DNA of 64,000 bases from Chitinophaga pinensis. GTDB lineage: Bacteria > Bacteroidota > Bacteroidia > NS11-12g > UBA9320. Positions 13,669-24,430 of this stretch are shown one piece after another. Location: contig CAMDSC010000001.1 of the NCBI GenBank assembly GCA_945907065.1, positions 223,190 through 287,189 of the forward strand. The letters are read 5' to 3'. Both the position numbers and the translations under genes were made by a program. The first letter of the stretch is position 1, and every line of letters starts with the position of its first letter. The notes under the pieces are model-generated. The model was not told where the DNA came from and ran no database searches. It worked only from the letters and a program-made list of their open reading frames with translations.

Positions 13669-14157
13669 TTAAACTTTCTTTGGCCAGTTATACCATTCCA
13701 ATTTTCCTTTGTGGGCAGTTATTTCATTCCAATTTTTAATATCTAATTTAAAAAGCCCCATACCGCAAGTTGGTAAATTATCAATTGTAGCATTTCCGAT
13801 ATAATTAAAAAGTTCGGTCATTCCGGGGTTGTGGCCAATAATAGCTAATGAATCAATATCGGAATCGGTGTTGGCTATTTCATATAAAATAACTTTGTGG
13901 GATGCCAAGTACAGTTTTTCAAGTTTTAAGATTGAATCTTTTTTCCAATCCAAATGTTTGCCTAATTGCTTGGCAGTTTGGCGAGTTCGCTTGGCTGCGC
14001 TAATTTTTATTAAGTCGGGTTTAAACTTTAATTTTTTTAATCGGTCGCTCATCAGTTCACAATCCTCTTCGCCCCGGTCGGTTAGTTTTCGTTCAAAATC
14101 ATTATCAAAACCGTTTTGCTCGGTTTTGGCATGGCGAATGAGAAGAAGGTATTTCAT
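13669..14157 (-). CDS. sixA: SixA-like histidine phosphatase
   Basis: A 162-residue protein of the histidine phosphatase branch. The catalytic motif is LLIRHAKTEQ (RHA form, as in SixA rather than RHG), with H8 as the phospho-acceptor; the second catalytic histidine is in AIIGHNPGM. SixA removes phosphate from histidine-containing phosphotransfer domains, so the protein may tune a phosphorelay. No histidine kinase is intact nearby, although fragments of a two-component system lie at 22.2-22.6 kb. The physiological substrate is an inference. Confidence 0.88.
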   Translation of the reverse strand: MKYLLLIRHAKTEQNGFDNDFERKLTDRGEEDCELMSDRLKKLKFKPDLIKISAAKRTRQTAKQLGKHLDWKKDSILKLEKLYLASHKVILYEIANTDSDIDSLAIIGHNPGMTELFNYIGNATIDNLPTCGMGLFKLDIKNWNEITAHKGKLEWYNWPKKV

Positions 14158-20159: not shown

Positions 20160-20870
20160 ATGCAGGCATTAAATAATCTTTTAAAAATAAGATGGTTCAT
20201 TGCTTTGATAGTTTTATCAAGCTTTAATCCCTGCTATTCCGCTGATGGTACCAATGATTATTTACAGAGTAAACCCGGAGGAAATAGCTTTGATACCAAA
20301 CGTTGGGAAAAACTAAAAGGAAATTATAAATATAAAACGCCAAAAATAGATAACGCAAAAAGTAAAACTCTAAATTTCAGGAAACCTTTGTTTTTAAGTG
20401 GTTCTGCATTTTTGAGATTATTAGCATATATCCTCATTTTTTTACTAATAGCTTTGGTTGTTTATTTAATAGTTCGCAATGGTTTTTTAGGTGACAAATC
20501 TCTTCAAAAAAAATCGTTAAATTTTGATATTTCCAATGAACCTGAAGATATAAACGACCTTGAAATTGACCCTTTATTGATGGAAGCTTTACGAAATGGA
20601 GATTATAGATTGGCTACTCGATTCCGTTTTTTAGCATTGCTTCAATTATTGAACCAAAGGAAATATATAAATTGGAAACGTGAAAATACCAATAGATACT
20701 ATTTTCAACAGCTTTTTGGCAATGAAATTCAATTATCATTTAAGCAGTTAGCTTTGATTTATGAATCAATTTGGTATGGTGATTATTTTATTGACGAGGC
20801 TCGATATCAATTGATTGATAAGCTTTTTAAACATAGTTTTTCGGTAATAAATACAAAGCAGTATGTTTAA
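20160..20870 (+). CDS. DUF4129 domain protein
   Basis: A 236-residue protein with a signal-like N-terminus, a lone membrane helix (about residues 82-106: RLLAYILIFLLIALVVYLIV) and a C-terminal cytoplasmic DUF4129 domain. The hallmark is visible: DPLLMEALRNGDYRLATRFRFLALL followed by NWKRENTNRYY. DUF4129 domains recur in membrane operons with SpoIIM, MoxR AAA+ ATPases and DUF58 proteins. It overlaps the next gene by eight bases. Confidence 0.92.
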   Translation: MQALNNLLKIRWFIALIVLSSFNPCYSADGTNDYLQSKPGGNSFDTKRWEKLKGNYKYKTPKIDNAKSKTLNFRKPLFLSGSAFLRLLAYILIFLLIALVVYLIVRNGFLGDKSLQKKSLNFDISNEPEDINDLEIDPLLMEALRNGDYRLATRFRFLALLQLLNQRKYINWKRENTNRYYFQQLFGNEIQLSFKQLALIYESIWYGDYFIDEARYQLIDKLFKHSFSVINTKQYV

Positions 20871-22158
20871 AAAAAATTGGCCAATTCTTATTGCTGGTTC
20901 GGTATTGATTTGTTTTGCTGTGTTTTTATACTACTTGTATAGTAAAAGTCCAACCTACAATTGGAGTCAAAATTATAATCAATCCAGTGATTCGCCTTAT
21001 GGGAATGAACTGTTGTTTGAACTTTCAAAAGGTTTATTTCCCGAAAAAGAGTTTACCAAAATAGAAGAACCATTAAGATACAATAGCGAGTTTAATACTA
21101 TTAAAAGTAAGAATAATATATATTTTTATAGTGGATATAGTTTTGTTCCTGACCGGTCAACGATAGCATCCCTGAATGATTTTTTAAGGAAAGGTAATCA
21201 GGTTTTTATTGCATCAAATGAAATCTCGGATTATTTTTTGGATAGTATTCTTCGCTATGAATTTACATCAGTAATGAGTTCGTCTAATGCATTATCTGCA
21301 ATGCAATGCATGCAATACAGCGTGCAATTAATTCATCCTGAACTTATACTTAAAATAAAACCTGTAATTCAATTAAAGTTTCTTGAAGCTTATATACCAA
21401 TGCAAGCTGGATATTTTTCAGAAGATTTTTTTGAAAACCAATCTTTAAATATTTTAGATTATGATTATTATCAGATTGGTAATCTAGAATTATCAAATAA
21501 TGAAAAATATACAAATTATATTAAAATAAAGGTAGGGGAAGGTTGGTTGCATTTATATTCATCACCGCTGGTTTTCACTAATTATTACCTTAGCAAGAAA
21601 GAAGTTTTTGATTATGCTCAAAAGGTATTTTTGCATTTGGAACCTGGAAATATATATTGGCATGTAAATACATATGCAAGTGAAGGGGCAACGGATAATC
21701 AAATTGCAAAGAGCGAAAGTCCGTTTGAAGTTTTACTTTCATTGCGTTCATTCCGTTATGCATGGTATAGCTTTTTTGGAGCCGTTATTTTGTTTAGCAT
21801 ATTTTGTTTTAAACGAAGGCAAAGATCAATTCCTGTTTTAGAAAATAACAAGAATACATCTATTGAATTTGCCCAAACCATTACAAAATTATATTTGGCT
21901 GATGGTAATCATAAAAATATTGCGGAACAAAAATTTCGTTATTTCTTCAATTTTGTGAGAACAAAATTTGGAATCAATTTAAAAAATAATAGCGAGGATG
22001 ATAAAACAAGACTAGCATATTTAAGTAAGATGCCAATAGAAAAGGTTGAAAAGATAGTATTAAATTACACTAAAATAAAATCTTTGCCCGATACAACGGC
22101 TGAGGAACTAAATGACTCGGTAGTATTGATCAATGAATTTTATAAAAATTCAAAATAA
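20863..22158 (+). CDS. DUF4350 domain protein
   Basis: A 431-residue protein with an N-terminal helix (IAGSVLICFAVFLYYLY), a periplasmic DUF4350-type domain (SPYGNELLFELSKGLF, FLRKGNQVFIASNEIS) and a second helix near residue 300 (WYSFFGAVILFSIFCF) leading to a cytoplasmic helical tail. Its order after DUF4129 is the usual one. The operon then stops: two bases after its stop codon the sequence belongs to decayed minus-strand fragments. Confidence 0.9.
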   Translation: MFKKNWPILIAGSVLICFAVFLYYLYSKSPTYNWSQNYNQSSDSPYGNELLFELSKGLFPEKEFTKIEEPLRYNSEFNTIKSKNNIYFYSGYSFVPDRSTIASLNDFLRKGNQVFIASNEISDYFLDSILRYEFTSVMSSSNALSAMQCMQYSVQLIHPELILKIKPVIQLKFLEAYIPMQAGYFSEDFFENQSLNILDYDYYQIGNLELSNNEKYTNYIKIKVGEGWLHLYSSPLVFTNYYLSKKEVFDYAQKVFLHLEPGNIYWHVNTYASEGATDNQIAKSESPFEVLLSLRSFRYAWYSFFGAVILFSIFCFKRRQRSIPVLENNKNTSIEFAQTITKLYLADGNHKNIAEQKFRYFFNFVRTKFGINLKNNSEDDKTRLAYLSKMPIEKVEKIVLNYTKIKSLPDTTAEELNDSVVLINEFYKNSK

Positions 22159-22159
22159 A

Positions 22160-22297
22160 TTAAGACAATAATTTTTGCCTTAAATAAAATTCAAGTTGTT
22201 CGTTGGACGTTAATAATTTGCCAGTTAATTCCTCTTTTTCACGTTTTTCACGGTAAATTTCAAAGGCTTTAAGAATTGTTGCTTTAAGCTCTTCGTC
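22160..22297 (-). pseudogene. C-terminal fragment of a response-regulator receiver protein
   Basis: Too short for a normal gene call and with no start codon. On the minus strand it reads DEELKATILKAFEIYREK, then EELTGKLLTSNEQLEFYL and ends RQKLLS-stop. This is the pattern of the last receiver-domain helix (after the K-P-x-D-D-E-E-L segment) plus the coiled tail of Bacteroidota response regulators. Everything upstream of DEEL is lost exactly where a 25-bp insertion-sequence-like end begins (22299), so the gene was cut there. Confidence 0.65.
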
Positions 22298-22298
22298 A

Positions 22299-22323
22299 TG
22301 TATGTCGTCAAACTAAAGTGTAC
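22299..22323. repeat. 25-bp IS-end-like element, divergent copy
   Basis: Starts TGTATGTCGTCA and continues AACTAAAGTGTAC; 19 of 25 positions match the copy at 23078-23102 in register. It lies at the exact break of the response-regulator fragment, and shares AAGG-A/AA-GTGTTTC a little further on with the 23078 copy, so the similarity reaches beyond the 25 bp. Confidence 0.55.
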
Positions 22324-22363
22324 TTTTTGTTAAGGAGTGTTTCACACTAATTCAAAGTTAAAT

Positions 22364-22573
22364 TTAAGTTTTTAATATTAATTGCTCATTAGTTTTCAAT
22401 AGTTCAGAGTTCTGCATTTCCAATTCAATTTGGCGCACTTCCAATTCATTTATAAGTTGTTTTATTTCGGTTTCAGAAAGTTTGTGCTTATTATTTGAAA
22501 AACGCTTTTTATGCAGTCCTTTTGCCTGCTGTAGAGAAACAATCCCATAATTTGAATTGTTATTTTTCTTCAT
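22364..22573 (-). pseudogene. N-terminal remnant of a sensor histidine kinase
   Basis: An open frame of 69 residues starting at ATG 22573. The second half (KLSETEIKQLINELEVRQ, then IELEMQNSELLKTNEQL) matches the conserved stretch that precedes the first PAS domain in many Bacteroidota PAS-histidine kinases, where a chain of this length would continue for hundreds of residues. It stops soon after and is followed by the IS-end-like element. I read it as the start of a kinase, truncated; it could in principle still be expressed as a short coiled-coil peptide. A promoter-like TACCTTTA box is near 22664 on the minus strand. Confidence 0.6.
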
Positions 22574-23077
22574 AATTGTAGTCTTCCTTTTTTTTAAAAT
22601 TCTTAATTACCTAGGTTAATTTATTTACACTACTGTTTTAAATAATTTTATAAGAAAGAGTAAAGGTATACTTGTTTTATTTCTATTAAAATGATAAGAG
22701 TCAGTATTTGAGCAATATAATTTTTCATGAAAAAAAAGCACATTTAATCGCCCCTTTTTCTGTTTAAAACTATAATATTGATTTTTATTTTTCTCTTAGC
22801 TTGGTACAAATTTGCGGTAAATTATGAAATGAAAAAAACCGTAATTTTATAATAATTTCTCACGTAATAAAATTTTCTAATTTGTATTAATTTAGGCTTT
22901 TTAAAACATCATTTAAAACTCTATTACTTTATAATTATACTTAATTTAAAATAGTAAAAGGCGCTTCACAGCGCCCTTTACCTAAATTCTACTAACTATA
23001 AAAAAAACTTATTACTAAGTTTTTTTATTAGTTTATGTCACCATTATTTTGCAATGGCTCTAGAATAAAAATTGATA
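22574..23077. other. Gene-free decayed interval
   Basis: About 500 bases of very AT-rich sequence with no credible frame on either strand. It contains two hairpins that look like leftover terminators: an imperfect GGCGC/GCGCC stem near 22957-22981, and an A-run/T-run hairpin near 23000-23026. Together with the fragments on either side, this suggests that genes were deleted here and terminators survive. Confidence 0.5.
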
Positions 23078-23102
23078 TGTAAATCGTCAGCATAAAGTGG
23101 AC
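23078..23102. repeat. 25-bp IS-end-like element
   Basis: TGTAA followed by ATCGTCAGCATAAAGTGG and AC. The same element occurs at 48381-48405 with two substitutions. Beginning with TGTA and occurring at otherwise unrelated junctions, it looks like a terminal repeat of an insertion sequence; I cannot name the family with certainty. Confidence 0.65.
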
Positions 23103-23234
23103 TAAAATTATTCAAATATAAGGAAGTGTTTCCAAAAAATTATAATTTTACAAAAGATGGAAACAAAAAAGAAACAAACTACCGAAAAAGTAAATTCAGT
23201 TTTCTCTCTGATTGCTCAAATGACGGGGGCTTAG
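23078..23234 (+). mobile_element. Possible insertion-sequence left-end remnant
   Basis: The 25-bp end is followed by ~55 bases of leader and a 25-residue open frame starting at ATG 23157 (METKKKQTTEKVNS, then VFSLIAQMTGA) that stops at 23234, just before the tRNA terminator. The layout (end repeat, leader, start of a first small reading frame) is what remains when an insertion sequence loses its 3' part. No transposase residues can be identified, so the call rests on layout and on the repeat. Confidence 0.35.
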
Positions 23235-23242
23235 ACAAAAAG

Positions 23243-23282
23243 AAACCCGACAAAACAATGATGAATTGGATTTGTCGGGTTT
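23243..23282 (-). terminator. Intrinsic terminator of tRNA-Ala
   Basis: Perfect 12-bp stem AAACCCGACAAA / TTTGTCGGGTTT with a 16-base loop; on the minus strand it is followed by CTTTTT. It lies two bases past the 3' end of the tRNA-Ala gene. Confidence 0.88.
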
Positions 23283-23284
23283 AG

Positions 23285-23358
<74 letters not shown>

Positions 23359-23404
23359 ATTTTAGGGATGCGAAAATACTATTTAATTGTAAAAAATAAA
23401 ATCA

Positions 23405-24430
23405 CTATTTAACTTTAAGTTTTCTTCCTAAATCTAAAATATCGATGGGTTGCATTTTATTAAGTTTGCAAAGTTTATCTACAGTGGTTCCGTATTTTCT
23501 TGCAATTGAATATAGAGTATCTCCTTTTTTTATGGTGTGAGATAAAGTTTTTGCTTTTTTTATTCTTTCTTTTTCTTTTTTATCCGCTTTTTCTTTCTTC
23601 TTTCGTTCTAGTTCTCTTTTTTTCTTTTCCTTTTCTTTATAAGATTTTAATCGATTTGCTTCATAATTGGCTTCCTTTTTTGCATAAACTGAATCGTTCA
23701 TCACTTCCACCATACTCGATAATTCATTTATATAATTTGATTTTGAAAAAGTAGAAGAATTACCTACCAATAAACTATCTGTATGCAAACTGTAATCTTC
23801 AAAATTTATGAGAATTTTAGGGTTTAAAGGTTTTCCAAAATAACGAATTTCAAAATGAAGATGTGACCCACGACTTCGGCCTGTGTTGCCTCCCAATCCA
23901 ATTAATTGTCCAAATTTTACTGGCTGAAATGCCGATAATTTTAGGGAGGATAAATGTCCGTATAAAGTTTCTAATCCATTAAAGTGACTTATTATTACAA
24001 AATATCCATATCCTCGGTTCCAGCCAGCCTGCCTCACTATACCGTCAAAAGCAGCGTAAACAGGATCACCAGTTTCTAAATCAATATCAATGCCTGCATG
24101 TATTTTGCCATTGCGCCATCCAAAATTACTGGTTACTTGTCCTCGGCATGGAGCTTCAAAACAACAGTGCAAATCATCGGTTAAATATAAACAGAGGGTT
24201 TGTCTTTCAGAGCCTGGTAATGCAATAATTCCAATTTTTGAAGTATCCCACAATTTGTTAATTTCACTGATATTATGGTCATAAGTTAATTCATCATATT
24301 CTCCTGAATCTAAATCTAATGAATCTGGTTTTAATATTTGTGATTGTGCTGAAAATACTGAGCAAATTAAAACTGTGATTAATAGTAAACGATTTAGTAA
24401 AAAGGGCTGGTTTACTTTAATTAATTTCAT
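23405..24430 (-). CDS. M23 family peptidoglycan hydrolase with C-terminal LysM
   Basis: A 341-residue exported protein with a signal peptide (LLLITVLICSVFSAQSQ). The M23 (LytM/lysostaphin-type) domain contains zinc ligands H111 and D115 (KIHAGID) and the H190-L-H192 motif (GSHLHFEIR), all intact, so it should be an active metallo-endopeptidase on peptidoglycan cross-links. A lysine/glutamate-rich linker (~residues 255-295) leads to a LysM domain (297-341, KKGDTLYSIARKYGTTVDKL) that binds the glycan. Its ATG overlaps the ribF stop by four bases. Confidence 0.95.
   Translation of the reverse strand: MKLIKVNQPFLLNRLLLITVLICSVFSAQSQILKPDSLDLDSGEYDELTYDHNISEINKLWDTSKIGIIALPGSERQTLCLYLTDDLHCCFEAPCRGQVTSNFGWRNGKIHAGIDIDLETGDPVYAAFDGIVRQAGWNRGYGYFVIISHFNGLETLYGHLSSLKLSAFQPVKFGQLIGLGGNTGRSRGSHLHFEIRYFGKPLNPKILINFEDYSLHTDSLLVGNSSTFSKSNYINELSSMVEVMNDSVYAKKEANYEANRLKSYKEKEKKKRELERKKKEKADKKEKERIKKAKTLSHTIKKGDTLYSIARKYGTTVDKLCKLNKMQPIDILDLGRKLKVK

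Follow-up and report, generated by a model that had tools for sequence, protein, structure and literature searches.

The 64,000-nucleotide stretch of DNA analysed here (the window; G000:C1:223190-287189) comes from a genome of 2.7 Mb in 63 contigs (G000), and the nearest named relatives found for it are metagenome-assembled genomes labelled 'Bacteroidetes bacterium' or 'Chitinophaga pinensis'. Based on the list of open reading frames and the position of the tRNA, 1.1 kb between a DUF4350-like gene and a tRNA-Ala gene contains no intact gene. The left flank, the DUF4350-like gene itself, is intact (20863-22158, plus strand; its Pfam match is below the cut-off). The right flank consists of tRNA-Ala (GGC; 23284-23358, minus strand) and the gene for an M23 peptidase with a LysM domain (23405-24430, minus strand), which adjoins tRNA-Ala in congeners also. 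Between the flanks lie, from left to right, the last 45-46 residues and stop codon of a response regulator (22160-22298, minus strand), the truncated right end (IRR side) of an insertion element that we call IS3-like (22299-22379, minus strand), about 64 residues from the N-terminus of a multi-PAS/GAF sensor kinase (22380-22573, minus strand), a non-coding stretch of about 500 bp (22574-23077), the truncated left end (IRL side) of a second copy of the element with its first orfA codons (23078-23187, plus strand), and the tail of a further coding remnant that ends beside the tRNA (23163-23234, plus strand). The original prediction had described two minus-strand coding pieces of a two-component system whose open frames lie 62 bp apart. 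Both the arrangement and the assignment were borne out, as the one piece aligns to a response regulator of the relative G006 and the other to a kinase of the same genome. The element end at 23078-23187 was absent from that prediction.

The regulator piece matches residues 110-155 of an intact 155-residue regulator in G006 with 85% identity (E 5.2e-17 in a search of the whole G000 genome). When the full-length G006 protein was used as the query, the window fragment was the sole match in G000 and lay at the corresponding position; residues 1-109 had no match anywhere in that genome. With a query whose first base is 22160, DNA homology to G006 ends at base 140, or window position 22299, where the element end begins. 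Pfam recognised neither this piece nor the kinase piece when searched alone. In the intact relatives, Pfam finds Response_reg at residues 9-118 and no other domain, as is the case for single-domain response regulators, from which these relatives differ by an additional conserved C-terminal tail ending in LRQ-x-L-x-S. Within the aligned regulator family the acceptor aspartate D56 is kept in 54 of 55 members and K107 in all 55. Because the window copy begins at residue 110 and is without the acceptor aspartate, it is a pseudogene of the single-domain response regulator family; K107 and the receiver core are lost as well.

The intact regulator is a separate gene of 155 codons in G006, G004, G002 and G001. 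It stands beside the DUF4350-like gene in G006 (L068, on G006:C2) and G004 (L069, on G004:C1), and the two genes are convergent in both of these genomes and in G000. Over its 46 codons the regulator tail contains no stop and shows a dN of 0.099 and a dS of 0.67 against G006, compared with 0.114 and 0.96 for the intact DUF4350 gene. The low dN/dS and the lack of a stop would mean either that the gene was broken recently compared with the divergence of the G000 and G006 species, or that the tail is still constrained, or that 46 codons are too few to show decay.

Residues 1-69 of a 1,513-residue G006 kinase are the counterpart of the kinase piece (57% identity, E 3.0e-15), and a full-length query again returned the window fragment as its sole match in G000, at the corresponding position. 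Among 147 genomes, relatives of the fragment at E <= 0.001 occur in G006 only, as two frames of 1,513 and 1,253 residues on contig C4 with PAS, GAF and HATPase_c domains; in Pfam, HATPase_c is above the cut-off and HisKA below it in these relatives, and the window fragment matches neither domain. Each of the two G006 kinases is followed by a lone receiver gene that is different from the orthologue of the window regulator. The two window fragments thus belong to different families rather than to one, the relatives of the kinase lying only on G006:C4 and the regulator on G006:C2. The kinase piece, whose open frame (22364-22573) runs on into the element, abuts the cut element directly, with a short AT-rich overlap at the junction. 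Upstream of it, a 64-bp hairpin-bearing intergenic sequence (22955-23018) is 92% identical to G006:C4:55593-55655. Since this sequence is common to the window and the G006 kinase cluster, the kinase fragment and the DNA upstream probably derive together, as a single piece, from a G006-type kinase cluster. A search for the donor site in G000 found a neighbour gene of the G006 cluster on G000:C8, with no kinase there, and a tblastn search of plasmids with the fragment gave no match. The hairpin sequence is also 84% identical to G006:C4:50237-50286, and it recurs at intergenic spots of the kinase cluster.

A 25-bp mobile-element end had been predicted at the break of the regulator. This proved correct, and the 25 bp (22299-22323) are the tip of an 81-bp IRR end that is identical at 78 of 81 bases to copies elsewhere in G000. 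Six further near-identical copies of this end are present in the genome, all at contig ends. The IRL end is identical to its own copies at 107 of 110 bases, and the five long ones in G000 likewise all lie at contig ends; in total, at least 11 further contig ends of the assembly carry the element. A 21-base pattern of the end matched the window once, against 0.00 matches expected in shuffles. Of the 26 outer bases, 20 are the same in both end types, which thus form imperfect terminal inverted repeats. Both window ends are cut inside the element, the first at about 22379. The two remnants share one direction yet represent opposite end types, which means that two copies of the element in inverted orientation gave rise to them.

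The family was inferred from a complete related copy of about 1,465 bp at G000:C51, which is framed by both end types, one before orfA and the other after orfB. Its orfA carries HTH_Tnp_1 and matches IS3 weakly; its orfB carries rve and passes the NCBIfam IS3 model (181.6 bits, cut-off 160), while the best-scoring model is IS481, at 197.0 bits below its cut-off of 224. The likeness to the IS3 family lies in the two-frame transposase of this related copy and the imperfect inverted repeats, and the window differs from a member of that family in that just 81 bp of one end and 110 bp of another remain. Searches with either end sequence found no G000 contig with the element body, and the window element's own transposase can be read for 23 residues only, the first orfA codons. 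These 23 residues gave weak matches only in a plasmid search, and the end pattern had no match in viral contigs. When flanks were compared for a target duplication, the 4-bp sequence ATAC was common to one contig-end pair among the 6 x 5 possible, which chance could give. In G006, both end types also occur close together (about 100 bp) and in the same orientation as in the window, at L114:3744-3867 (G006:C7).

To the right, the junction between the second element end and the remnant beside tRNA-Ala falls in the sequence ACCGAAA, which is present in both parents, the element copies and the corresponding remnant of the congener G001. The window remnant looks like the C-terminus of a large serine recombinase, but searches of Pfam, NCBIfam, PHROGs and plasmids, for which the longer form from G001 served as query, left that likeness unconfirmed. 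In G001 the broken frames beside tRNA-Ala (L108:3376-4038, on G001:C24) are partly common with window 23163-23369 (87.7%). They adjoin an ArsR-like, arsenic-type gene group and are possibly part of an element integrated at tRNA-Ala.

The neighbourhood of the intact regulator was examined in relatives. In G006 the regulator belongs to a cassette (L106:7760-15153, on G006:C2) that continues with a divergent gene for a ThiF-oxidase fusion, a 236-residue protein, a 721-residue 7TMR-DISM kinase and a receiver-kinase. When the fusion protein was searched against 395 genomes of the class (E <= 1e-20), it gave 71 matches in 69 of them. One locus per genome was examined (n = 69; L072, L073, L076, L077, L106 and L161-L224), leaving out the second matches in G234 and G463. 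A regulator gene divergent from and adjacent to the ThiF or ThiF-oxidase gene was found in 55 of the 69 loci, and a lone regulator anywhere in the fetched stretch in 62. A GNAT-like gene of about 236 codons is adjacent in 62 loci; the 7TM kinase is present in 61 and the receiver-kinase in 52, and regulator, 236-residue protein and kinase occur together in 57. The lone regulators of the family are concentrated in the divergent slot, with 57 in its 82,800 bases against 12 in the remaining approximately 1.05 million bases. These counts treat L194 as lacking the divergent regulator, since its frame was called too long, though the listing shows a regulator at this locus. For L193 just 260 bp of upstream sequence is available, and the sequence of L169, L198, L201 and L216 breaks off no more than 250 bp beyond the ThiF gene on its downstream side. 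The regulator is truly absent from the fetched sequence of L172, L191, L210, L213 and L223. In the reverse direction, a search with the 47-residue regulator tail gave 21 non-self loci, partly overlapping the 69, of which 14 have an adjacent ThiF gene and two more have the 236-residue protein. Among the close genomes, the ThiF gene is present in G001, G002 and G006 and absent from G000, G003, G004 and G005.

The fusion protein passes the NCBIfam model of the Rv1355c family, NF005901 (757.5 bits for G006 and 757.8 for G112; cut-off 476). The oxidase half is fused to ThiF in 46 of the 69 loci, and the remaining 23 (L201-L215 and L217-L224) have ThiF only, with no separate oxidase in the fetched stretch. 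Because these 23 genes are without the oxidase half, their product may differ from that of the fused type. Assignment of the 236-residue protein was less direct. The G006 protein has no Pfam match of its own; of the 62 genes found, 58 gave usable frames and 39 were aligned, and among these 39 eight match GNAT (PF00583) at E <= 1 (best 3.7e-5) and two match FeeM (best 0.1). A profile search of solved structures with the family reached no better than E 0.09, against serotonin N-acetyltransferases, and a single-sequence structure model of the protein gave no usable fold (pLDDT 29.9). The protein is likely an acyltransferase, judged by the GNAT and FeeM matches. Going by gene order, the kinase and the regulator of the cassette would be a pair.

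Taken with the junctions in the window, these data make it highly probable that 22160-23283 is a decayed scar, left by insertion of the element into a lone regulator gene and subsequent deletions, and that the relatives of this regulator partner the ThiF cassette. The ancestor would have had a complete lone response-regulator gene, in convergent orientation to the DUF4350-like gene. The IS3-like element would then have landed in this gene, at the codon that follows Pro-Trp in the C-terminal KPW motif, a site shown by the limit of homology. A deletion would have run from inside this first copy into a multi-PAS kinase gene, and the second, oppositely oriented copy would have lost its body likewise, against the remnant beside tRNA-Ala. 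The junctions can be read directly in the DNA; since no relative shows an intermediate state of the scar, the order and mechanism of the events are what we infer from them. The proposal that most of the original content was deleted held up. The ThiF gene of the G006 interval is absent from G000, as is the N-terminal part of the regulator. In G006, the DUF4350-regulator and tRNA-Ala-M23 flanks share a contig, separated by 9-10 kb. That the ancestor of G000 carried the cassette is open to doubt, as G004 has an intact regulator beside DUF4350 with no ThiF gene, mfd adjoining instead. Judged by gene order only, the original job of the regulator would most likely have been to take phosphate from the kinases of the cassette.

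The most serious competitor to this sequence of insertion and deletions is recombination between distant copies of the element, which would have joined a regulator locus to a kinase locus, with small deletions afterwards and the cassette moved or lost in the exchange. Two inverted element ends within 0.8 kb, the abundance of the element at other contig ends and the location of the kinase relatives in a different region of G006 are all in keeping with such an exchange. However, the flanks (DUF4350 on one side, tRNA-Ala-M23-ribF-truB on the other) are collinear between G000 and G006, so that the interval itself was not split apart, and the ThiF gene is found nowhere in the G000 assembly. We consider recombination unlikely, though it is the alternative to which we give most weight. 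Far less probable is the original view of a single locus, either a hybrid kinase or a kinase-regulator operon, into which the element inserted before most of the interior was deleted. It drew on the common strand, the kinase start upstream of the regulator end, the short distance and the element end between the two. The regulator is nevertheless a separate gene with other neighbours in four congeners, and no multi-PAS kinase like the window fragment was found in any of 70 loci around the regulator or its ThiF neighbour (the 69 ThiF loci and G004). The kinase relatives of G006 lie on another contig beside a different lone receiver gene, and the window contains a second element end and another remnant to the right.

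Two further explanations are more improbable still. The assembler evidently struggled with the repeat, since all other copies of either end terminate contigs, and the junctions could in principle be artefacts of assembly at a repeated element. Each window end, however, can be told from the common copies by three bases and runs into unique sequence, so that no repeat join is needed, and an artefact is very improbable. We give the least credence to the idea that the regulator tail and the 69-residue frame from the kinase N-terminus were kept as functional small proteins: both frames are open, and the tail has a low dN/dS against G006, but a catalytic or receiver core is missing from each, the kinase frame runs out within the element, and the relatives yielded no conserved small-ORF form.

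The scar itself is an ordinary case of a signalling gene eroded by an insertion sequence and deletion, and it corrects the idea of one hybrid kinase. Its value lies in the neighbours of the regulator's intact relatives, and the cassette deserves follow-up. Rv1355c is TrzS, which cyclises and desaturates the N-acyl tryptophan made by TrzA (PMC12856293). Its products in mycobacteria are N-acyl oxazolones, and the authors of that article describe their physiological role as a major unresolved question, with signalling as one possibility; trzAS is located near cyclic-di-GMP genes (PMC12856293). TyzACB is the tyrosine version of TrzAS (PMC10404671). The Bacteroidota cassette resembles these mycobacterial clusters in its Rv1355c-family ThiF-oxidase with an adjoining acyltransferase-like gene (PMC12856293, PMC10404671). 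It differs in its link with a 7TM kinase and a lone regulator, in the ThiF genes without oxidase at 23 of 69 loci, and in an acyltransferase that is only weakly GNAT-like. ThiF-nitroreductase clusters are listed for other phyla in the stieleriacine paper (PMC12479983). Neither PMC12856293 nor PMC10404671 uses the terms histidine kinase or response regulator, and counts of kinase or two-component words were zero for both and for PMC12479983. A limited search of the open-licence literature, judged by titles and the starts of abstracts, returned no description of a ThiF/oxazolone gene set with a histidine kinase.

We tentatively put forward a reading to which we give somewhat less than even chances, namely that the lost regulator came from a self-contained Bacteroidota signalling cassette. 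A GNAT-like N-acyltransferase and a TrzS-like ThiF(-oxidase) would make an N-acyl oxazolone or a related N-acyl amino acid, and the 7TMR-DISM kinase and lone regulator, joined by the receiver-kinase in most loci, would sense the product. G000 would then be a natural case of ThiF loss in which the regulator tail was left behind. It is our own suggestion that the Bacteroidota cassette possibly both makes and senses oxazolones. If true, oxazolones would be signals in at least one phylum. Since dozens of Bacteroidota genomes conserve a TrzS-family gene together with a regulator and a membrane kinase, the signalling idea can be put to the test in laboratory strains.

A SixA-like gene further to the left in the window (13669-14157) had been suggested as a former phosphorelay partner. 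Its product scores 56.3 bits against the NCBIfam SixA model, below the cut-off of 74.5. Our analysis did not support the suggestion, as the gene also lies upstream in G006 and in G004, the latter with an intact regulator and no ThiF gene, and nothing links it to the regulator. This SixA-like phosphohistidine phosphatase gene is kept upstream in both relatives whatever the state of the cassette.
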